This document shows positions 30,470-53,600 of a stretch of DNA of 64,000 nucleotides, one piece after another. How positions within the stretch are numbered: position 1 is the first letter of the stretch; each line of letters begins with the position of its first letter. The notes beneath the pieces are model-generated. The model worked only from the letters and a program-made list of their open reading frames with translations. It did no database searches and was not told where the DNA came from. Source of the DNA: Adineta ricciae (Eukaryota > Rotifera > Eurotatoria > Adinetida > Adinetidae); NCBI GenBank assembly GCA_905250025.1, contig CAJNOJ010000017.1, positions 124,001 through 188,000 on the forward strand, written 5' to 3'. A program made the position numbers and the translations under genes.

Positions 30470-30475
30470 TTTATT
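30470..30475 (-). terminator. Poly(A) signal overlapping a stop codon
   Basis: On the minus strand the RNA-repair gene ends GTT-GAA-TAA-AG, so AATAAA overlaps the stop codon. The 3' UTR is probably very short, and the convergent thioesterase gene ends 224 nt away. Confidence 0.5.
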
Positions 30476-33169
30476 CAACATCATCACCATCAAAAATAAG
30501 CCCATTCTTTCTTATCGGTGCTTTGTCCCAATGTTCCGTTATCCCAGCAGTGAAATCAGCTCGTACAATTTTACCACGATTGATCACTTGTCCGTTTTGT
30601 TCTTCTTTGACATAGATACCTTCGACTGGACCATCATAGAACTGAGACGGTTGTTGAACCATTCCTTTGAGAACATTATCTGCCGGTCGTGGTCCTCGAT
30701 ACATAACATAGACAAGTGAGATTTGCGTTCCTTCAAGTAATCGTTCGAGTGTGTCACGATCGGCCCATGTTTTTGTTCGCCGATCGTACAAATCAAACGC
30801 AAGAAATCGGTCAGGTAATCGAGAATAGGGAATCGAATGTCTTGCAACGAGCCATTCGCCGTAGAGAATGTATCGTTCAGGAAATGAATTATCCCGATCA
30901 AGAATATTGTAAAGACCTTCGCGATGTGCTTCAATCCATGTATAGAGTGGACGAAATTGTGCATGTGTATTCGATGTGACATAATGTGATCGATTCTGTA
31001 CGAGTAGTTCTCGATCAGCTGATAACGAAAAGCCCATATTGGCACCGTCGACTTTTTCTGTAATGACAACATATGGCGAATGTGTTGATTGATTGAATGA
31101 AACTAGAAAGTCGTCTTCGGCCGCTGCACCTAAATTCATCAGATGACCCGTGCGTAAAAACTTCAATATACCGACCGGTGTTAGTCTTCTAATGAGTTCA
31201 TTGGCGGCATCGAACGAGCGAATAACACATACAGCTGCAAAACCTTCATCTAGTCGTGGTCTTTCCATTTGTCGCTGCATACTTTGAACTGCTGTTCGTA
31301 CGCGTTGACCAGGCACGAGCGTTGGATGATCAGTACGCTGCTGTGCGCGAGAGATACACAATTGAGGATCATAATCAAAATACACACAGATGGGTTTTCG
31401 TGCCCAATGCGCGATACCTAACCATTCCCTTCGATCTTCTCGATTGGGATTACAACGATCAAGAATCGCTTTCGAATATTTACCAGGTCGACCTAATTCA
31501 CGTTCACACGTATCACGTGATCTGGTTTCATCTTGAGAGACGATTGTCCATTGTTCATCACGTATGACCATCATTTGTGCTACATACGATTTTCCTGATC
31601 CAGGTAGACCACAAAGCATTACTAAATCAATATTTCCATCTAGGAGTCCTTCGATTTCAAGTGGAAGTCCTTCTGGCTCCGCTGGTAATGGTGGCAAAGG
31701 TGATTGGCGTTTCCACACAATACTTACAAATGCATGAACAAATCGTTCTTGCTCTTCGGTTTCGATACTACCTGGTCGTAGTTGTCTCAATTTTTCAATA
31801 GCTTCACCTGCAGACATACGTGGCTGTGTCCATTCTTGAGCAGATGGTGACTGGAAACCGTAAACAGTCAGATAACAAGCAATCATCGTACCAGCTCGAC
31901 CTTTACCGCCGCCGCAATGGATTAGCAAAGGTGCATTTGCTTGATCAGTCACCAGTCGAAAGAATAAATCGACTTGTTCAATGGTTGGTGCGTGATAGTT
32001 TCCAACCGGAAGGTGTGTATGTGATATGGTTTTGTTAAAGAACCATTCTTCAGGCAACGGATCTTCTTCAGTTAGCGTGACTACATGTCGAACACCAATA
32101 TGGGGAGAAGCCAGTGCATCAATATCACGTTCATGACGAGGAGTTGACATGACCGAGAGGAAAAATGGCACAATCCAACGAAAATAACGTGGTAATGAAA
32201 ACATTTCTAAAGTTTGTTTGGAATCATACAGTTTCATCTCCGATAGGGAAAGTTACGATATTTACCTAAATTTTGATTCACACTTCTTGGATCTACAAAT
32301 GGTACTAAAAGATGATCACGTGTATTCTGACTAAATTGTGGCTGTTCATCCGAATATATATTCACGAAATGTTCACGAATGATTTGAGGCCAATGTGTAA
32401 ACAAATGCTGTCTCAATTCATTTGGTATTTGCTCTAATTCATTTTCGCCAAACAAACATCCCCATTCGGTGTACATGGAGGCGCAGTTAAAGATCTTTTT
32501 TGAGCAATATTCACGGAGTTTTTCATTTCCATGTCCTGGCACGAGTTGCATTGTTCGAGCGTAAGCTAACATCGCTAATTTGTGTTGTTCGTTACGTCGT
32601 GCGATATCACCCAAGCGTAGCCAACTCTTTTCCGAATCAGGAAATCGACTACACATTTCTCGTGCGTAGATAAGGACTTGATCATATTGGTCAGACAAGT
32701 TGTATGACAGGACGAGATGATCAATAGTATTTAAATGTTGATTTTCCATTGAAAATGGTTCAAGCAATGAATAAAGACTTTTATCCAACGAATGGTCATC
32801 GTTGTTACTTAAGGTTATATGGAATTGCTTGACGGGAAGTCCATACTTTTTACGAAAGATATTTCCAGCATTCCAAATAATCACAACCCAACATACACCT
32901 CTGGGATCACCTCCAAGACCTAGTGAGAATAAATGTTTTGTATCGATTTTCGATGCACTATCATATAAATCATCTGCTTTATTCGATGGATCACTTGCTA
33001 AGTGCCGTAGTTCATCCTTAGTTATCAGTGTTATATGGTACGGAGCTGATGGAATGGCAGTAATACCAGCAGCATCAGCGATGTTCTTTGCAATTAAATC
33101 AATAGGAGCGCCGAATACACCGATATACCCTCCACCGCGTTTTATAACCATTTCGTTGCTTTCTGCCAT
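30471..33169 (-). CDS. Four-domain RNA repair enzyme: 2H phosphoesterase, phosphatase, polynucleotide kinase, RNA ligase
   Basis: Two exons (33169-32266 and 32206-30471) joined across a 59-nt intron give 879 residues. Residues 1-150 hold two HIT motifs (45-47 and 117-119), the 2H phosphoesterase signature for opening 2',3'-cyclic phosphates. Residues 150-300 look helical and TPR-like. At 398-405 HCGGGKGR is a dual-specificity-type phosphatase loop. A Walker A motif GLPGSGKS (501-508) begins a kinase domain with a DRCNPNREDRREWL block. The ligase has motif I KVDG (Lys 686), III YILYGEWL (747-754), IIIa FLAFDLYD (769-776), IV VEGIYVKEE (829-837) and V RGKIVRADF (845-853), as in T4 Rnl2-like enzymes. 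One chain could therefore heal both ends of broken RNA and seal them. It resembles the 'Swiss Army Knife' RNA repair proteins described by comparative genomics. The combined model rests on intron phase. The start at 33169 follows a CTAG acceptor by 10 nt. Confidence 0.85.
32207..32265 (-). other. 59-nt intron joining the two halves of the RNA-repair gene
   Basis: Starts GTAAAT and ends ACTTTAG, length 59 (2 modulo 3), exactly what is needed to bring the upstream frame (...VNQNL) into the downstream frame (EMFSLPRYF). Read unspliced, the two frames overlap as ATGA and look like separate genes of 311 and 588 codons. Confidence 0.8.
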
Positions 33170-33899: not shown

Positions 33900-34738
33900 T
33901 CAAAAATCATCAGTTTTTGCCTGTGAAAAATTATANTTTCGATAGCCAGTCGAATAAATCAACGCTTTAATTTTATCCTGTAATTCATGAAAGTTCCATC
34001 CGACGATTTGTTTTTGGCAAACAATTTCTTTGATATTTCTCTCTGAGCGTGTATATTGCTCTATAGCATCTCGTAAAGATACCGTTTCTCCCGCTTTCAC
34101 AGTTTTATTTGAAGGAATCACTGCGACACGCCACCATTGTTGAGACACATACGATGAAAGGTCAAAAGCAAAATTGAAGTCAGTCACTTGACGAGTGCGA
34201 TGAACAGGACGTGTGTGATAGCTTCCGTCAGCTGAACGGTGCTGCTCGTAAGTAGTGTAGTGCTATATACATGTGTAGAAATAGAGATCGAGATCAAAAT
34301 AGATTTAGGTCATACCTCAATATGATAACCGTGAATATTAACACTAACAGCTGGTTTTTCATTCAAATAAGTCATGAAATACAGCCATAACTGATCAGGG
34401 TTTCTGTCAATCAAGGGGTCAAATGAGAGAACACCTTTTCCATCTCGTTCAACTTCCGCTTTAGATGCTTCAGTATACGGTGTGACTTCATTGTAGTGTA
34501 GAACAACGTTATTAGGTACAATGGATATATCGAAATAGTTTGGTGGTAATTCACTGATATCAGGAGCTGATGGAGCTGGATATTCACTTGGATTTGGTAC
34601 GCCTTTTCCATCATTTGGCACCCCCATGTTTACATTCGATGTGGACATTGCATCCGGAGAAGGTGCCCATGCTTGAGCATCTGCTGACGATAGCTTGTCG
34701 CCGACAAAACCTGATGGTGCAATGGTATTTTGAGCCAT
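33900..34738 (-). CDS. Unrecognised conserved-looking protein, C-terminus uncertain
   Basis: Two exons (34738 to about 34315, and about 34263 to 33900) joined HGYHIE|HYTTYEQH give about 260 residues. The N-terminal 55 residues are Ala/Pro/Ser-rich and probably disordered. The rest is a folded-looking domain with FDISIVPNNVVLHY, LWLYFMTYLNEKP, VSVNIHGYHIE, VTDFNFAFDLSSYVS, LRDAIEQYTRSERNIKEIVCQKQ and IKALIYSTGYR. I do not recognise a named family; I recall similar uncharacterised proteins in fungi and protists, which is not proof. After STGYR the frame runs through an N base (33936) and a short AT-rich tail to a stop. The tail contains the same TGTGAAAAATTATA string as the nearby transposon end, so the natural C-terminus may be lost or lie further left. 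Confidence 0.6.
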
Positions 34739-39090: not shown

Positions 39091-39591
39091 TTTCCTCACT
39101 TTCTCCTTTTTTTTGTATGTTGTCTCTATGTGTGTTGTGTTTGGATGATGATTTTTTCTCTCGTGCGCTGTTTTTCTTCTTGACGTTTTTTTTTTGAGAA
39201 ATAGCAAAAAAAAAGAAGAAAAGAGAAAATGCATGTCGATGAAACAATATAATGGAATTGAAGAGATAGAAAGAGGAAAAGCGAACTGCTCTTCTATCTT
39301 CATCATTACAACCATCACCAAATTTTCTAATTCAATTGACAAATACATATATTACTCGTCTATGTCATCAGTCTTCTGATTATCAATCGAAGCTGCATTA
39401 CGTTTTGTTCCTAATGGCTTAGATAAACATCAGATGAGGAAAGGACATTGTGAATGTCAACTTGTTCGCAAATACGTGTGCATTTTCAAATTTCAACTGA
39501 AACTTTAGTTTATTTCAAATGTTTCGTTCTAGCACAGAAAACAAACTCTTTCATTGAATGACATTATTCGACAAAAGAACTAATCATCTTT
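38865..39591. other. Intergenic region with microsatellite
   Basis: Upstream of the calcium sensor. It contains the CT repeat listed next and A-rich sequence; the Lys/Glu/Arg-rich ORFs across it are translations of the repeat. Confidence 0.5.
39064..39091. repeat. CT dinucleotide microsatellite
   Basis: About fourteen uninterrupted CT units at 39064-39091, flanked by pyrimidine-rich sequence. It lies about 200 nt upstream of the calcium-sensor start. Confidence 0.95.
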
Positions 39592-43629: not shown

Positions 43630-46600
43630 TTAGTTCGCAGCGAAGACGTCTTCTTGATCGAGCGATCGCGATATTGCTGGCGGCGATGAATCTTGACGAA
43701 AATGGTTGATTTTCGATAGTATTTGCGGTGAATTCAGTAAATCGACTGTGGAATTCATATTTCCGCCTTGACCATACGTGGAATCTTCAGTATCAGATCC
43801 AATAGGATCCGTACCAAAGTATCGATCACCGAAATTTCCTAAACCTGGACAGATAAAACCTGTGTCTGGATCAAGTTGTGTATCACATGCCGTGGTAACT
43901 ATCTTGACTTTCGGAAATGCATAAGCAACAGTTTGAACACCTGGATCGAGAAGGAGAGTACTTTTTCGCGAAAATACATTTATTTTAAACAAACCTTGTT
44001 TAGATACCAACAGAGAAAGTAAAGCAATTCTATCTTCTGGGACGTTGTGATCCAATAAAACTCGAATGGCCATAAGCGCAGCTGCTCCAGTAGCTACAAC
44101 GAAATGACTTAGTTTTATTGGAAAATCTTCCACTGCGAGATCTTATTACCGATAGTAGCATCAAGAATAAATACATAAGCATTAGCAATGTCTCGAGGTA
44201 ATCGAAGGAAATGAAGCTAAGATTTTTTTCCAATTATATATCAATAGGAGGAAAGATCAGTAAATTCTCGACATTATTACCTCTGGTTCACCATTAGACG
44301 GATTCGTTTGAATTAAAATTTTGCCAATTTTTGCATCTTTACATACTTCACTTAATGCTGGTTCTAAACATTCACCGGCTCGTACAATTGACACACCGCA
44401 AACCTATTTCATAAGCACACGATGACAGTGAATTCATTTTTCATGAAATACTCCAAAAATAACTTACATCTGCGTACACATGTTTCTTTCCTTTATATGA
44501 CAGACTTTGGGGCGTTTCCACAGTGACATCCTAGAATGATGTTTCACAGTTAGCTTTTAATAAATTATGTTCCAAATATTCAATACTTCAAAAGGTAATA
44601 ATGAAAGTGCGTATTCAATTAAAACACGCATCAGACGTTTGGAATAGAAAATGAATTCATCACGAAATGTTTGTTTATTTCTAAAATTGCATTGCCAAAA
44701 TGAATAAACTCGGCAGAATGAAAGTAAAACATTGTTACCTAATGATCGTGTGAAGATACTTAATTTGCGCCGTTTGTTCAACAAGATAGAATGTATCGGG
44801 CATACGTAAATCGCGCATAAGTCCCAGATTATTGACAAGTTCATTTCTTACTTTGACGCCACGCTATTTATTCCGAAGAGAGATTAGTCGAAAATAAGGC
44901 GTCAGGAGATGATTAGACATACGTTATGAAGCTCACGATTTACATGACGGACAATTAAATCGATGGCGATTTTGTTTTCACCACCTGAAACAAAAGGATT
45001 GCGTTGTGCAATAGATAGCGATTAAAAAATGCTCTTAGAACATATTTTCACCCTGGAAAATGATACGGCAAGAATGATTTGGTTATTTATAACCAGTCAT
45101 TCCACAGTGTAATGAAGAACATGTCGATATGAGCGAATAATTTGCATTTCTCACCTCTTGGAACGATTAAATCTGCATAGATCATCGTTGGAGCAATATA
45201 ATGATCGTACGATGGTTTCACAAAACGTGTATATTGCTGTATGACACCATCGATCTCTCGACCACGCTCGGATATATCACGTTCTAATCGACGTGCTAAA
45301 CGAATATCTGCATCCGTATCGACGAAGATTTTCATATCAAGAATCTATGATGAATTAAAAAGGAAAGTTGTTCGGGTATTAACTCGATCTCGATTAGAAT
45401 CACATACTTCAAGGATTTCTTTACTAGCAAATGACAAAATGCCTTCGAAAATGACTACATTAGCACCATAAAGTATTTTCTAGAGATGAAAATCGAAAAA
45501 AAGAAGTGAATATTGGCCTAGGCTTGATCAAATATACCGTATGAGATTCACGAGAATGAGTAGTGAAATTGTAGAGTGGAATTTCCACCTAGATCAAGAC
45601 AGGAAGAAAAAGGATCGCAGATATGAGAAGTGATTTGTTCAGATTTTTACTGTACTTGTCTACCCATTTTGAGATTTCTAAGTGTTTCAAGTAAAAGATC
45701 AAAATCAAATGCATCGGGATGATCAAAATTATAATTGTTTTCATTGGCAAGTTCATGTTGTTCATCGTCAAGTACCTGAATATTAATGCAACTACGAGAA
45801 AATATCTTCTTGTCTGGTTACTTTGTAAAAGGAATCCATGCATAACAACGTAACCCATGGTACGTTTAATTTTTCCACAATATTTTGTGCAACTGTCGTT
45901 TTACCGCTAGCACTACCTCCACAAATGCCAATCATAAAGGCTTCTTTGATTTCACCTGTTGCATTGTACCAAGCGGGTCGACCTATTTGACAAAATGAAA
46001 ATAGAAATAACATTTGTTTATGATCATATGTACCTGCTGTATAAATCGGCTTTTGTCCACGAAATGATATTCGATCATCGCCTGAGCGACTAGTTGTACG
46101 TAGCCGTCGTCGACGCATTTTTGTTCCTGGTGACGCTGGCGTTGATGGTGATGTTGTAGTATGTGGCTTACCATTTATAGTCTTATTTTGCTTGGTGAAA
46201 AAACTTACACGACGTTTCGCTAATGTTGGTGAAATGTTCGTTGAATCATTTTGCAAGATTTCATCATCATCATCATCATAATCTGAATCACTAAAACAAA
46301 GATTAAAATCATGGGTCTACAAGTTAACAATGGGTAAATGATTAGAATAGTTAGATCAATGATAAATTATGTTAACTCTTACCATTCTTTACTCTGATTT
46401 TCATCAGTTACATTAGAATCACTCGTTGCATGCAACGTTTTTTCTTTGGTAGCATCTTCTATCGACATTGTTCTTTTTTCAATATCTATGATTGTATTCA
46501 AAATCCCTGACAAAAAACAACCTACTGACTACTCACATGTGATCGAAGTCGATACTTTCAACTCGGCTCTTTTACTTTTTCTTTCGTACACTATAGTCAC

Positions 46601-46894
46601 ACATGTCTATATATGTATATGTATACATACAAGGAAAAGGAATCGCGAAAAACGTCAAGCATGTTATACATGGTTTGACTTAACATTCAACAAGCGTAAA
46701 AAATAATTACTTAGAAGGAAAGAGGAGAAAACATTCGAAAAAAGACAGAAGTATATACAGCGTAGTTTTGCGTTTTGTCTAATATGAAAATTAGCTATCT
46801 TGGAATAAAATAAGAAAATGAAAATGAAAACAAAGAAGAAAATGAACTAAACGTACCTGTCGGTAGTGCCTGAATGCCGTCGATAAGTGCTCAT
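43630..46894 (-). CDS. UCKL1: Uridine-cytidine kinase-like 1 (kinase plus UPRT domain)
   Basis: About eleven exons from MSTYRRHSG (ATG at 46894). A charged, Ser/Asp-rich N-terminus with [13 protein letters not shown] is followed by the uridine kinase domain: P-loop [41 protein letters not shown] and [29 protein letters not shown]. The C-terminal half is a uracil phosphoribosyltransferase fold with [50 protein letters not shown] and [15 protein letters not shown]. The order matches human UCKL1, which phosphorylates uridine and cytidine for salvage. The UPRT half of animal UCKL1 has no proven activity; the ATGAAA loop in place of a canonical PRPP loop agrees with that. A 51-nt open intron near 43940-43990 (GTTTGT...CCAG) was removed because it restores [14 protein letters not shown]. 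Confidence 0.92.
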
Positions 46895-47123
46895 TTTTTG
46901 CAAAAAGAATCTATCTACGAGTAAAATAAATCTCACGTAGTTATACAGTTTTTAATATAATTTCGTTGGGTTGTTTTTTTTTCATCGGTATGTATGCGTT
47001 AATTTTATTTTATTTTCGAAAGATTTTTGCAACACATACATAGAAAACAAAACAAATAATCATGATGGTGTTCAGCTGATTTGTTTTCCTCTTCTTATTG
47101 TGAGTTGTTCGTGGAGACGGTTT

Positions 47124-47883
47124 CTAATAGAGACGTTGTGGTTTACCCATGCTGGATTTCACGTAAAGTGCACGAACGTTTTGCCAGTTTTTTTTCAGTA
47201 ATGAAACAAGAAAGTTAACCGATAAGTTAATGTTAGCAGCTAATTCTTCGGGTGTCATGTTTACATTACCAACGGCAACAGCTAAGCAGATGGTTTTCTT
47301 AGCTTGAAATTTGATTGTTGATTTAATTTCTTCAACTTTTTGTACCAACGAATCACTGTGTGTGATGGCTGTTGGAAATTTACCAGCTTTGTTCAAACCA
47401 GGTCCTAGAACGAACGAAGATCGAATCGGAAAGTTCTACGGTGGAATATCTTTACCAAGAATACGAGGGATTTGTCGAATGACAACATCGGATGCGAGAA
47501 ATGCATCGTATTGATGTGAGAGTTTTCGTACGAGCTTTTTATCCTTGTTTAATTTTTTCAAATCATCAACAGTCATTGCTGGGATATTGTTAGCACGAGC
47601 TTCATCACAATGACGTTCGTCACCCAAAACGCAGACAGTGAATTTTGGTTTGGGGATGTAACGAAGACGGACAGTACCACTGAAACGTTTGTCACGTGAT
47701 GGATCGAAGTTTTTGAGAACGATTTGCAATTCAACTGTTTCGACGAATTTACGTTTCTTGGTTTCGTTGGAGTATGTCAAGACATTATTTGCCGTTTCCA
47801 TGAGCATATCCTAGATTGAAAATGAAAATCACACGAATCTGTTTCAGCTTTCGCTGACTTACGCGAGTGATTTTCGACGACAT
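47124..47883 (-). CDS. RPL10A: 60S ribosomal protein L10a (uL1)
   Basis: Three exons: MSSKITR (ATG at 47883), [22 protein letters not shown] through IPRILG, and [19 protein letters not shown] through GKPQRLY at the stop (47124). The sequence runs along uL1 without gaps and is about 217 residues, the family's normal size. Diagnostic blocks are [55 protein letters not shown] and [11 protein letters not shown]. It forms the L1 stalk of the large ribosomal subunit, which moves deacylated tRNA out of the E site. The short introns carry no obvious snoRNA. A TTTCTTTCAG acceptor about 30 nt upstream of the ATG suggests a 5'-UTR intron or leader trans-splicing. Confidence 0.96.
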
Positions 47884-48973
47884 GTTGAGATGATTCGACT
47901 GTTAAATTCGATCTGAAAGAAACGTACGAAAATCAACATTTAGAACGTAATCCTGATGTCTAAATAATTTATTGCAAAGAAGCTGAAAAATAAACAACTC
48001 TTCTTCGACTGGTGATCCAGTTTATACCATTGAACATTCTGGCAAATATCATTGCAACAGATTTTGAAAGTGAAAATCAAACGATTACTCGATCAAATCA
48101 GACCGGAATCTGAATATCAGGTTTTAGAATCATTTTCGGTTGTTACGGTAAGTTGCTAATGCACTTTGGTACATACTGATTTTGACCAATCAGAAATCAA
48201 GAAACGTCTTCGCTCCCTCCGAAAATTTGCTGCAAGATTCGATCTAGAATATGTCTGATCGTGATAAACTAACGGGCATGCTGTTCTGTCCGTTACGTTG
48301 TCTGTCATAAATGGCTGCTATCTTTCACTTCCGCCACTACCAATCCCTAAAGTACTCTAGATAAAATCAACTAATGTTTCTTGTCAGACTTAGTCTTCAA
48401 TTTTTAAACACAATCTCTGTAACGAGATTTCTAAGTAAAATAGATATTTGAAAGATTCTATAAAATCAACGTTCTTAACAAACTTTTCACGATAGAAATA
48501 GAAATCATCTCGTGTACTACCGTACCGTATGTAACATGTGACGAGTAAGTCCGACAACTGAGTGTATGTCCGATATCAAGCAGATGGTGCTGGTTTACGT
48601 TACATGTCACTATGAAAATCAGTATTTTTTAAATGCATTTTCTACAATAGATTCAGATTTAACGACGATATTTGTTGAAAATTTTACTTTAAAAAATTTT
48701 TTTCCAAGGTAAATCAAATGTTTCGTTAACGCTACAGCGAATCTTAATGCCATCTAGAAGGTCATTCTGATTTCTTGCTCTCTCTCCAGCCAATATCTAT
48801 ATCATCCTTATAGAAATCTTGTGTTAAAATATTTCGTTGCGAAAGATGATTGGCTAAATCAAATTTAACTATTATTCACAAGGAAATATCAAACTAAACT
48901 TCAAATTCTATACTAGTCAAATTCATACACTTCTTTACTCAATTTGATTCTTAATAGTCGAACGAATTATCAA
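47884..48973. other. Divergent region between RPL10A and the mitochondrial carrier
   Basis: About 1.1 kb that should carry both promoters. No ORF of note. An imperfect palindromic pair (GTAACATGTGAC near 48531 and GTTACATGTCAC near 48600) is present. No TCT/TOP-type start is certain. Confidence 0.45.
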
Positions 48974-50280
48974 ATGGCAGTAGCCGCACGTGCGACTGTT
49001 CAATCTCTTGCTAATAAGATTGACGATAATGATATAAAGTTAACCGCGAGTCAAAAGCCTCACATACGTGAACATCCATTTCTGAAAGAAGTAATGTGTC
49101 GGCACTTTTATCTATGCACATTATTTTTCTACTGTTATAGTTTGTTACCAGTGGTTTAAGTGTATCTGTTGCTAATGTTGTGACACTACCAAGTAAGAGA
49201 ATTAACTCATCTTCGATCGAGATGTGCTCATTTCCTAAATCATTACGTATTTCATTTAGTTGAGGTGTTGAAAGTACGTTTGCAATTAGCAAATGCAGCG
49301 ATGACAACGTCAAAATCAGCGATGAAAGCAGGTCTGATCGAAACAACACAAAAAATCTATCAAAAGGAAGGTGTTCGAGCATTTTATTCTGGTCTTATGC
49401 CGGCTATCGTTCGTGGACTTTTCTACGGTGGAGTGCGACTTGGTAAATCTATCGTAATCAGAGAAAAATAGTACATTTCACAATGCTTTTGTAGGCGCTT
49501 ATGGGCCCATAAAGAATATTCTTAAACGTTTTGTCACCGATGATAAGCAAGCAACGGTGAAATTCGTTCGCAATGTTGCTGCTGGTTGTTTGTCCGGTAG
49601 CATAGCAGCTGTAGCGTCGAATCCAGTTGATCTATGTAAAACAAAGCTTCAAGCAAAAGATTCACCATACAGATCATCAATGCATGTGATAAAAGATGTC
49701 ATTCAACATCATGGAATTAAAGGACTATGGGTTGGTACTGTACCGGCAGCTGTACGAACAGGTTCGAAAGATAATCGTGTACGATGGCATGTGTCATTGT
49801 TTGGTATCTGACTTTAGCTGCACTTACAGCAACACAATGTGTGACATATGATCATGCTAAACGATTTTGGATACAAATTACTGGTTGGGGTGAAGGAATC
49901 AATTTACATCTAGGTGCATCATTGATCACTGGGTTTGTAGAATTATCCAATGACTTTTTCATTCGTGAACTTTCGGTTTTCGCAGACTTGTTACCACAAC
50001 AATAACAGCACCACTCGATACAATCAAGACGAATATGTATGCAGCAGGAGATTCTGGTGTTATGGAACTGACTAACAAAATTGTTCATAAAGAAGGTTTG
50101 AGAGGCCTGTTACGTGGATGGTCAGCAGCGTATGTCAGACTTGGTAAGTTATCTATCAAATGTTTCGCTTTCATTCCTTCATCGAACCAAAACATTGTCG
50201 GTCTTTTAGGACCACAAACAACGGTTATCTTCCTTGTTATGGAAAAATTACGTCAGTTTTCTGGCCTTACAGCACTATAA
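48974..50280 (+). CDS. Mitochondrial carrier (SLC25 family)
   Basis: About six exons from MAVAARATVQSLAN (ATG at 48974) to ...FSGLTAL (stop 50280), roughly 290-300 residues. All three carrier repeats are visible, each with its signature after the odd helix: VTLP-IEVLKVRLQ, SNPVDLCKTKLQ and TAPLDTIKTNMY. The even-helix motifs are EGVRAFYSGLMPAIVR, HGIKGLWVGTVPAAVR and EGLRGLLRGWSAAYVR. Six membrane helices in the inner membrane are expected. The signatures and 'YDHAK' resemble the dicarboxylate/oxoglutarate/UCP branch, so it may carry an anion such as a dicarboxylate, but the substrate is not read from the sequence. Intron phases fit throughout. Confidence 0.9.
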
Positions 50281-50649
50281 AAAAAAACGATTACTACTAG
50301 ATCAAATTAATACATGTATTCTAGTCTACTCCTCCCATCTACTCGATCGATATGTTGTCTTCTTCACTATTCCATCTCTATCTTACTGCTACATATATCT
50401 GATACATGTAGCCGAAAAACTTCTCCTTTTTTTTATTGGATTTCATTTTTTTCTCTTTCACACTGCACTCGTCTGTCGAGATTAAAATGTGATTTCACAA
50501 CTGCAAATTAGATAAATTTTTATTATTAAAAGAAACTATGCCTTGCCGAGGTCTTTTTATGTAAATAAATAAATATATATATAAATGATTTTTTTTTAGC
50601 GAATCTTTTGTTCTTTTAGATATTTTCATTCTAATTCGTGAACTTTTTC
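50281..50649. other. Gap between carrier and DNAJC16
   Basis: 369 nt between two plus-strand genes. The end holds two strong 3' splice sites (TTTTTTTTTAG at about 50600 and TTCTTTTAG at about 50620) before the DNAJC16 ATG. This is compatible with trans-splicing or a 5'-UTR intron. Confidence 0.5.
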
Positions 50650-53600
50650 ATGCATTTAGTCAAATATCTCTTCATTTATTTTTTCATCTGTCTGTGTAAA
50701 TTATCAGCTGATAAAAACAATAATTTCAATCCATATGAAGTTCTTGGTTTACCTCGTACAGCATCAGATAAAGATATTCGGCAAGCTTACAAGAAATTAG
50801 CCAAACATTGGCATCCCGATAAAAATTCCGAACCTAACGCTCATGATCAATTTACAAAAATCAATGCAGCTTATGAAGTAAGTTAATCTGTAGCTGACTT
50901 CGAAACAAAAGAAGCTTCTTTGTCTAGATACTTTCGGACTCAACTAAACGGCAGAGTTATGACGAATATGGTACCACTTCACAAGACAATCATCGCGGCT
51001 TTAATACAAATCATTTTCGTGATCCATACGATGTATTTCGCGCACATTTCAGTGATTTTCATTTTTTTCAAGAAGTGCCATCAGGTGCGAAAAAGATTAT
51101 TCATACACGGTAAGAAATTCGAATTAACCATTCAATTATTCTATTCTTATTTGAATTTTAGTGAATTTTTGAGCAATATTTTCCCAAATAGTGATAAGAA
51201 ACCATATGTGCTTTTTGGTAGTACAACATTTTGTTTACATTGTCGTCAACCTTTAATGATATTTCGTTCTCTGGAAAAACAATTCAATGACGTCGGAATC
51301 GGCACAGCAGAATTCAATGTTAATGATCAACGTTTAAGTAATGAATTAGGCATCTTCAACAGTCCATCTTTATGTGTAATTAGTCAACGACGTGTCTATC
51401 ACTTTAATGATCATGGTCGATCGAGTCATTATACAGAGAGCAACATTAAAGAATTCGTCCGGAAATCTATGCCGATCAAACGTCACATACGCATGGTAAA
51501 TGACAAGAAACATCTTGTTGATTAATGACCGATTTGCTTGTTGATATTTTAGTTAGAAACTGCTGATGATATCGTATCGTTAATATCATCTTACAATCAA
51601 ACAAATCGAGTTCATGCGATTTTAATCACACGGCAGAAAACACCAACATTAAAATTTGTTGTACCTTGTTTGCAGAATATCTTAGGAATTCAGTGTGCTG
51701 TATTCAATTCATGTATGAGAAAAAAAAGCACAAGAATTCTTTTCCGTATTTTCGTTTATTTGCTTCATTTTCTTTCGATAGCTGTGATATTGACTAGTCA
51801 ATTACCATCGTTTCTTAGACCAATTTCAACGACGTCTGATACAGTTCTATTGTTTAAAGAAGAGAAAACTCCCGTTGCGGTGATCAAAGAAGTGAGTAGA
51901 TGAAAGAATCGAGCGATTGATGACTGACAATTCGCTTCATTAGAATGATTTAACTTTTTCAAATATTCAAAAATTATTCGAATCAAATCAACTCCTTCAC
52001 TTACCAACCATAACAAATACGAATGTATTCAATTTAGTATGCCAAGCTAATTCAGCGAAGTAGGTCACTTGGAATTGAACGATGGGACGTCATTTCGTAA
52101 TTCTAGGTTATGTTTTCTAATCATTGGTGATCCGTTACTATTCGAAGAGTATCGTTCGTCGTTTCTATTCCTTGCCAAGCAAATTTTTCAACAATATGGC
52201 ACACGTATGGCCTATCTTGACACATCGCCGAACAAACAAATAGCTTTTAGCAAAATTTTCTCATCGATTTATCGCGCCGATGAGAAAAAGCTTTTTGTAA
52301 GTTGTTCATGCAATTGAAATTCAAAGAAACATATTCTTTGTTCGAAAAGATCATTGCCGTTCGTCGATGGCTTGACGATATAATTGAATTAGTGAATACT
52401 GAAATCGAATTTGATTCGAAATCTCTGAGTGAACTGAAGCGTAATCATTTCAATATTGCTGCTGATATTGAAGCAAATCTAAAGCTATTCTTAACAACAC
52501 GTTGGCAAAACGCCAAGAAACATTCACTACCACCGATATTCAACCTAGACCAACAAAACGAAGTAAGATCAACTTGATTCAATTTATCACATTCCTTTCA
52601 TTTTCGTTTGCAGAATTTCGTAACAAAATTGATCAATCAAATTCAAGACAAATGGAACTATTGGTTCGAGAGAAGTCCAATTCTTCGCTCACTGTCAGTA
52701 GAATTCTCATCGATTGTACTCGACATGACTTGTGAAGTTTTCAATAGGTCAGGATATGTTCTAACATATCAATTTTGGTTAATGCTTACGCCGATCATTG
52801 GATTTTTGTGGTATTCAAAACACAATTCAGATACAAATTCAACTCGTACTAATATAAAACAACCTCGAAGATCATTTGCATCTTCCCCGTCCCGAAAATC
52901 GAATGATTTAAAGTAAGACAAAGGACTTTTTCTTCGTTTGTTTCCTCATAAACAAGTCGTTTCAGTCGAGCACATATCAATGCAATCAAATGCTCGGAAT
53001 TTGATGAAAGTTTCCTTCAATCCTACTTAGCTCCTGGTGCGCCAAATGTTATTGTTTTACTTTTAATTGCTGATTCAACAGACGATTCATGCATTGCTCA
53101 TTTTAACAGACAAATTAATTCAATTAATGAGTATGTATTCAGTAAACTTCTGTCTGTTGAATGGTACAAGCATATGGAGTCTGCTAAACAGTTAAGACCT
53201 GCCAAATAAAGCCCTTTGTACTAATGAATCTAAATTTGGCTAATCTATATTAACTAAAGATCTTCTCCTTATGCAGAAAAGTCATATCTTGACGAGGAGA
53301 AAATAAACTTCATCAAGCCTCTCAGTTATTTAGTTCGGTCCGCTGCACCTAACGAAGTTCTTGCATATGCTATAAATAATCAGGTCAAATAGCTGTGCGC
53401 AAAGAATTCTTTAATGTAAACACGAGATTAGGGAGAAAGAAAAGGATCTCCTTCTCTTTTGTTTAATATAACGAAAAATTTTTAATATGATCTTGTCTAA
53501 AGCCTGATTAATTTAGCTGAAAAATTGGAGAGAAGAAAAGCATAATAAATTTATTAGGATAAAGATCTGTATCTCAAAATAGAATGTCGATTAGAATGCA

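Follow-up and report, generated by a model that had tools for sequence, protein, structure and literature searches.

Does a single gene of the rotifer Adineta ricciae encode all the activities with which a broken RNA would be healed and sealed, and does such a gene belong to a kind of protein that already has a name? This question is raised by two ORFs on the minus strand of the window (the whole stretch of 64,000 nucleotides analysed), in which a sequence-only reading had seen one chain with four catalytic modules. Judged by its predicted domains, the locus probably encodes a Swiss-Army-Knife (SAK) protein, an enzyme that would heal and seal RNA within a single chain.

Indeed, when the two exons were scanned apart with hmmscan against Pfam, exon 1 matched the full 2H-SAK profile (1-124 of 124; E 2.4e-21; 76.7 bits, cut-off 27) and exon 2 matched the full PTP-SAK profile (1-153 of 153; E 1.1e-60; 204.6 bits, cut-off 27), nearly all of RNA_ligase (2-169 of 171; E 5.4e-35) and, as a partial match, AAA_33 (E 2e-12; best stretch at profile positions 1-36 of 143). 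These domain matches are far beyond chance. With the splice predicted here, the four modules (2H, DSP-type phosphatase, P-loop polynucleotide-kinase-like domain and RNA ligase) lie in one chain, as had been proposed (Table 1), and Pfam places the HIT pair in 2H-SAK and the HCGGGKGR loop in PTP-SAK. Two other claims are not supported, namely that no named family fits this protein and that the phosphatase is an odd fourth module. Pfam's descriptions of both 2H-SAK and PTP-SAK refer to the Swiss Army Knife proteins, which gives this architecture a place under an existing name, and, PTP-SAK itself being named for these proteins, the phosphatase module is not foreign to them. On domain content, the predicted gene belongs to this already named kind, for which a 2016 article by Burroughs and Aravind is said to be the founding paper, and what is unusual in it is two letters of the phosphatase active site.

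The likeness to SAK proteins, drawn from Pfam names, consists of the two SAK-named domains far above cut-off, together with a kinase and a ligase in the predicted chain. The differences are (i) residues N371 and A406 of the phosphatase, (ii) a TPR-like stretch after the 2H domain and before the PTP domain, with TPR_14 at 18.5 bits (cut-off 23.5) and the TPRs of solved PEX5 at E 4.3e-6 (whole sequence) and only 0.024 (best single stretch), and (iii) the HAD domain, for which the Pfam scan listed no match in either exon; in the available part of PMC7765460, a table row has a phage polynucleotide kinase matching "HAD domain in Swiss Army Knife RNA repair proteins". In the available part of PMC11090510, the Swiss Army Knife wording occurs only inside a reference on Cdc48. 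In PADLOC, exon 1 gave one weak HerA match (E 0.039) and exon 2 no match; in PHROGs, exon 2 matched RNA ligase (2.2e-16), with weaker matches elsewhere in the exon.

Table 1. Predicted gene, exons and domains (window coordinates; residues counted on the spliced model)
Feature	Position	Strand	Details
SAK gene	33169-30471	minus	two ORFs and inferred 59-nt GT-AG intron; 879 residues plus stop
Exon 1	32266..33169	minus	904 bases; ATG at 33169; codons 1-301 and base 1 of codon 302
Intron (inferred)	32207..32265	minus	59 nt; GTAAAT...CTTTAG; phase 1
Exon 2	30471..32206	minus	1736 bases; ends at stop TAA
2H phosphoesterase domain (2H-SAK, PF22547)	32792..33130	minus	residues 14-126; H45xT47, H117xT119
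TPR-like helical stretch (weak)	32519..32719	minus	residues ~151-217
DSP/PTP phosphatase (PTP-SAK, PF22784)	31737..32192	minus	residues 307-458; HC399-X5-R405, N371, A406
P-loop polynucleotide-kinase-like domain	31245..31625	minus	residues ~496-622; K507, D527, DRCN 551-554
RNA ligase nucleotidyltransferase domain (PF09414)	30570..31073	minus	residues 680-847; K686

PTP-SAK, AAA_33 and RNA_ligase all lie within a single ORF (30471-32237), and the 2H domain joins this PTP-kinase-ligase chain only through the predicted splice. Left unspliced, ORF 1 would stop at 32234 and ORF 2 would start with the ATG at 32237, each domain remaining whole on its own side of the boundary, as would be expected of two adjacent genes coding for a 2H-TPR protein and a separate PTP-kinase-ligase protein; however, the preferred intron links the ORFs in frame and Pfam gives both of them domains named for one protein kind, and two genes seem very unlikely. 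When donors from about 32230 to 32468 were scanned with intron spans of 30-200 nt, 15 GT-AG pairs could join both ORFs in frame, yielding 832-884 residues, so we infer the exact splice; the 59-nt intron was preferred among these pairs, its signals being judged best by eye. G+C by codon position (0.57/0.40/0.29) is much alike in the two exons, a pattern that coding sequence would show. On the spliced model, a script search agreed with all the motif positions and the 879 residues given by the sequence-only reading: HIT starts at residues 45 and 117, HCGGGKGR at 398, GLPGSGKS at 501, KVDG at 686, YILYGEWL at 747, VEGIYVKEE at 829 and RGKIVRADF at 845. A six-frame search without introns of the animal's own genome (130 Mb, 1033 contigs) found no SAK locus beyond this one, and located six PF09414 places and nine places of PF13563, which we take to be a 2H family.

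In the 2H module, both HxT/S motifs are present (H45-I-T47, H117-I-T119), and H45, T47, H117 and T119 are invariant in all seven rows aligned (the predicted protein and six bacterial members). The bacterial members are stand-alone 2H-SAK proteins (ORFs of 183-247 aa) from 6 of 398 genomes of the phylum holding Piscinibacter, and the domain is not exclusive to SAK proteins, since such members exist. No 2H-SAK match above cut-off was obtained in 377 genomes of a second bacterial phylum (one weak match, E 6.2e-4), in 14 named control genomes or in 30 genomes from the 80 ligase loci described below, the last being a weak test without a match anywhere. Likewise, phmmer detected no PTP, kinase or ligase within the 9.0-9.5 kb around the six stand-alone genes, a weak test because the same run recovered only two of the six 2H genes themselves. 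Exact 8-residue patterns, also a weak test, gave 12 matches in viruses and no relative. By eye, the stand-alone proteins (L252-L257) have hydrophobic starts resembling signal peptides.

The phosphatase is the module whose chemistry appears in doubt. Its C-X5-R loop is intact (Cys399, Arg405), and to this extent it resembles the ordinary dual-specificity phosphatase that had been proposed. However, it has Asn371 at the position that we take to be that of the PTP general acid, and Ala406 directly after the catalytic Arg, where a Ser or Thr presumably plays a role, so that both the general-acid Asp and the Ser/Thr are absent. At these two places, the 14 bacterial rows compared have Asp (13 of 14) or Glu (1 of 14) and Thr (14 of 14), and 25xa and 4erc have Asp and Thr. 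The bacterial rows are the best loci from 98 genomes with PTP-SAK at 1e-15, extracted by a script with the pattern HC-X5-R-[S/T/A]-G (14 of 14 loci gave a row). PTP-SAK is a broad model: at 1e-15 it is found in 94 of 294 genomes of one phylum and in 4 of 398 of the phylum holding Piscinibacter. The predicted protein scores 204-208 bits on it, against a best of 105 bits among the 692 bacterial genomes of the two phyla and at most 43.8 bits for the other matches in its own genome.

The loss of the acid Asp or of the Thr after the Arg strongly slows classical PTPs, and the replacements by N371 and A406 could mean that the domain has little or no phosphatase activity and serves to hold phosphorylated RNA ends and to steer the remaining modules. 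We consider this unlikely, as Cys399 and Arg405 are retained and the whole PTP-SAK profile fits at 204 bits, which suggests that phosphatases of the PTP-SAK kind may use another acid. Either way, the odd site poses a sharp and cheap biochemical question.

The kinase module matches the solved P-loop kinases 9drz and 9d8a (E ~2e-17; 33-39% identity over the aligned parts), the latter named for the fungus Rhizopus azygosporus, and has in common with them the P-loop residues and the QD, SR, DRCN and DHPT motifs. It matches solved bifunctional polynucleotide phosphatase/kinases at 4.5e-4, the PNK-3'Pase model at 2.4e-7 and the bacterial Pnkp model at 1.1e-6, both models far under their cut-offs. 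In viruses, 44 loci matched the kinase, with best identities of 25-50%.

The ligase had been read as Rnl2-type. The motifs are indeed present and the domain is RNA_ligase, whereas the RNL2 model TIGR02307 gives only 13.2 bits (cut-off 197.15) and the nearest sequences are short bacterial ligases among the matches listed; by sequence, the module is of this short bacterial type and not a canonical Rnl2. The K686, D688, G689, GEW, FD, EG and R.K columns are invariant in 22 of 22 rows, that is, the predicted protein and 21 of the 80 genome loci kept. By alignment, the main catalytic residues of the 2H, kinase and ligase modules are present. Furthermore, tblastn of exon 2 matched 20 plasmid records (up to 39.5% identity) and six phage records, in each case in the ligase part. 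Scans of genome contigs confirmed at least 532 ligase stretches, of which 80 were kept, and scans of viral contigs at least 59; 59 viral and seven plasmid loci complete a set of 146, in which L039 repeats L025. In this set, single-sequence phmmer found the ligase in 146 of 146 loci, the kinase weakly in four and neither PTP nor 2H in any, a method which can miss distant domains and which missed most HD-kinase genes in these same loci. With no fused relative carrying PTP or 2H among these 146 prokaryotic and viral loci, the arrangement is unconfirmed by kin.

In a quick tree of 84 ligase rows (50 of the 80 genome loci, 25 of the 59 viral, six of the seven plasmid, two of the five other ligases of the own genome, and the predicted protein), the ligase joins three Myxococcota rows, among the matches listed, with support 88, unstarred and on a long branch (1.93). 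A bacterial source was considered and is not claimed, because this branch is long and unstarred, long-branch warnings were raised and the only eukaryotic rows are those of the own genome. In the own genome, a second ligase (contig C265, L002) looks Rnl2/REL-like by eye (EKIHGANF, GEIFGG).

An HD + AAA_33 protein is encoded directly after the ligase in all three nearest Myxococcota loci. A search with one of these proteins listed 13 ORFs in 13 of the 146 loci; five lie among the 80 genome loci, three among the seven plasmid loci and five among the 59 viral loci. Among these, the gene directly follows the ligase in five of five genome cases and in two of three plasmid cases, the third plasmid case lying after a small gene, and only one of the viral cases (L115) is adjacent to the ligase. 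AAA_33 plus HD was confirmed by Pfam in five of the five proteins tested (L029, L030, L033, L034, L044), with the HD domain of L033 just under cut-off. A ligase with a downstream HD/P-loop kinase gene was noted in five genome loci (L033, L034, L044, L080, L106) and three plasmid loci (L028, L029, L030). The two genes likely form a bacterial heal-and-seal pair; a reference-list title in the available part of PMC9146567 names HD-Pnk as an end-healing enzyme. The pairs resemble the predicted protein in their ligases, 40-41% identical in the closest rows listed, and in an AAA_33 kinase, but they are separate genes with HD instead of 2H and PTP. In four of the seven plasmid loci (L025, L026, L027, L031), the ligase instead comes after a DUF3696-type AAA gene and a small gene without a name, the latter having no Pfam match in L025 and L026. 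In L057 (1028-4672), the ligase ends an open frame of 1215 aa; the MAG bears the label Klebsiella pneumoniae.

Taken as one chain, the protein is most likely a complete heal-and-seal enzyme. The 2H domain would open the 2',3'-cyclic phosphate that a ribonuclease cut leaves behind, the PTP domain would then take off the 2'- or 3'-monophosphate so formed, the P-loop kinase would phosphorylate the 5'-OH, and the ligase, adenylylated on Lys686, would pass AMP to the 5'-phosphate and seal it to the 3'-OH; the four modules would presumably act on the same RNA end and in this order. Alternatively, in a Trl1-like order, the 2H domain would leave a 2'-phosphate, kinase and ligase would seal, and the PTP domain would only later remove the 2'-phosphate of the junction, a job done in yeast by Tpt1. 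2H enzymes often leave 2'-phosphates, and the placement of the PTP domain between 2H and kinase leaves the step order unfixed; however, the PF09414 ligase is near bacterial ligases, some of them beside HD-kinase genes among the matches listed, and this setting suggests 3'-OH sealing; the Trl1-like order seems quite unlikely. Trl1 itself, the tRNA ligase of yeast and plants, combines cyclic phosphate opening, 5' phosphorylation and sealing in one chain, but with a different ligase branch and domain order and without a PTP. The RNA joining known from animals is mainly of the RtcB type. According to the available part of PMC9931718, a human 5'-phosphate/3'-OH ligase has been reported only lately. 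In bacteria, the Pnkp1-Rnl-Hen1 complex repairs ribotoxin-cleaved RNA, as stated in the available part of PMC4411300; it likewise unites a kinase-phosphatase with a ligase, but in three proteins with other domains.

As to the substrate of the complete enzyme, our leading guess is ribotoxin-cleaved tRNA or rRNA, which we rank above desiccation damage. Repair of desiccation or radiation damage, and not defence, seems somewhat unlikely as its role. In the available part of PMC10809525, Adineta vaga RNA ligases belong to the common response to rehydration and radiation, and two further ones are up after radiation only, these being genes that were not matched to the present one. Against this, the available part of PMC11258130 reports about 15 RNA-ligase genes per rotifer species, with RNA-ligase functions enriched in the response to a fungal pathogen (50-70% of the genes upregulated) and not in desiccation, again for genes not matched to the present one; its authors suggest ribotoxins, cite the domain PF13563 in this context and have PF09414 among the domains of their trees. 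Very unlikely, in our view, is a bolder reading in which the PTP domain, devoid of ordinary catalysis, would recognise ends that bear a 2'- or 3'-phosphate, with sensing and mending of ribotoxin cuts thereby united in one chain, as an animal RNA-repair immunity factor made from microbial parts. Healing and sealing combined in one chain would, in an animal-type genome, offer a clean single-gene test of whether RNA is repaired after toxins or after drying.

A homeologous copy of the gene was sought on contigs C330 and C456, and neither compared stretch contains a SAK gene. C330 is colinear with window positions 43807-52041 in four pieces (65-74%), and a 36-base match near its first base falls at 39324; the colinearity over 43.8-52.0 kb fits an old genome duplication, as known in bdelloids. 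For C456 (19.8 of 67.9 kb compared), blastn matched only window positions 34312-34546, at two places of the contig (74% and 70%); this contig has two DSP-like places, and tblastn of the predicted protein against the stretch gave phosphatase-level matches (25-28%). TGTGGG arrays gave 28 overlapping matches on six contigs, the reversed control (30 matches) being uninformative because reversal only shifts the phase of this repeat. Elsewhere within the window, Pfam matches to Smac/DIABLO and UPRTase were observed.
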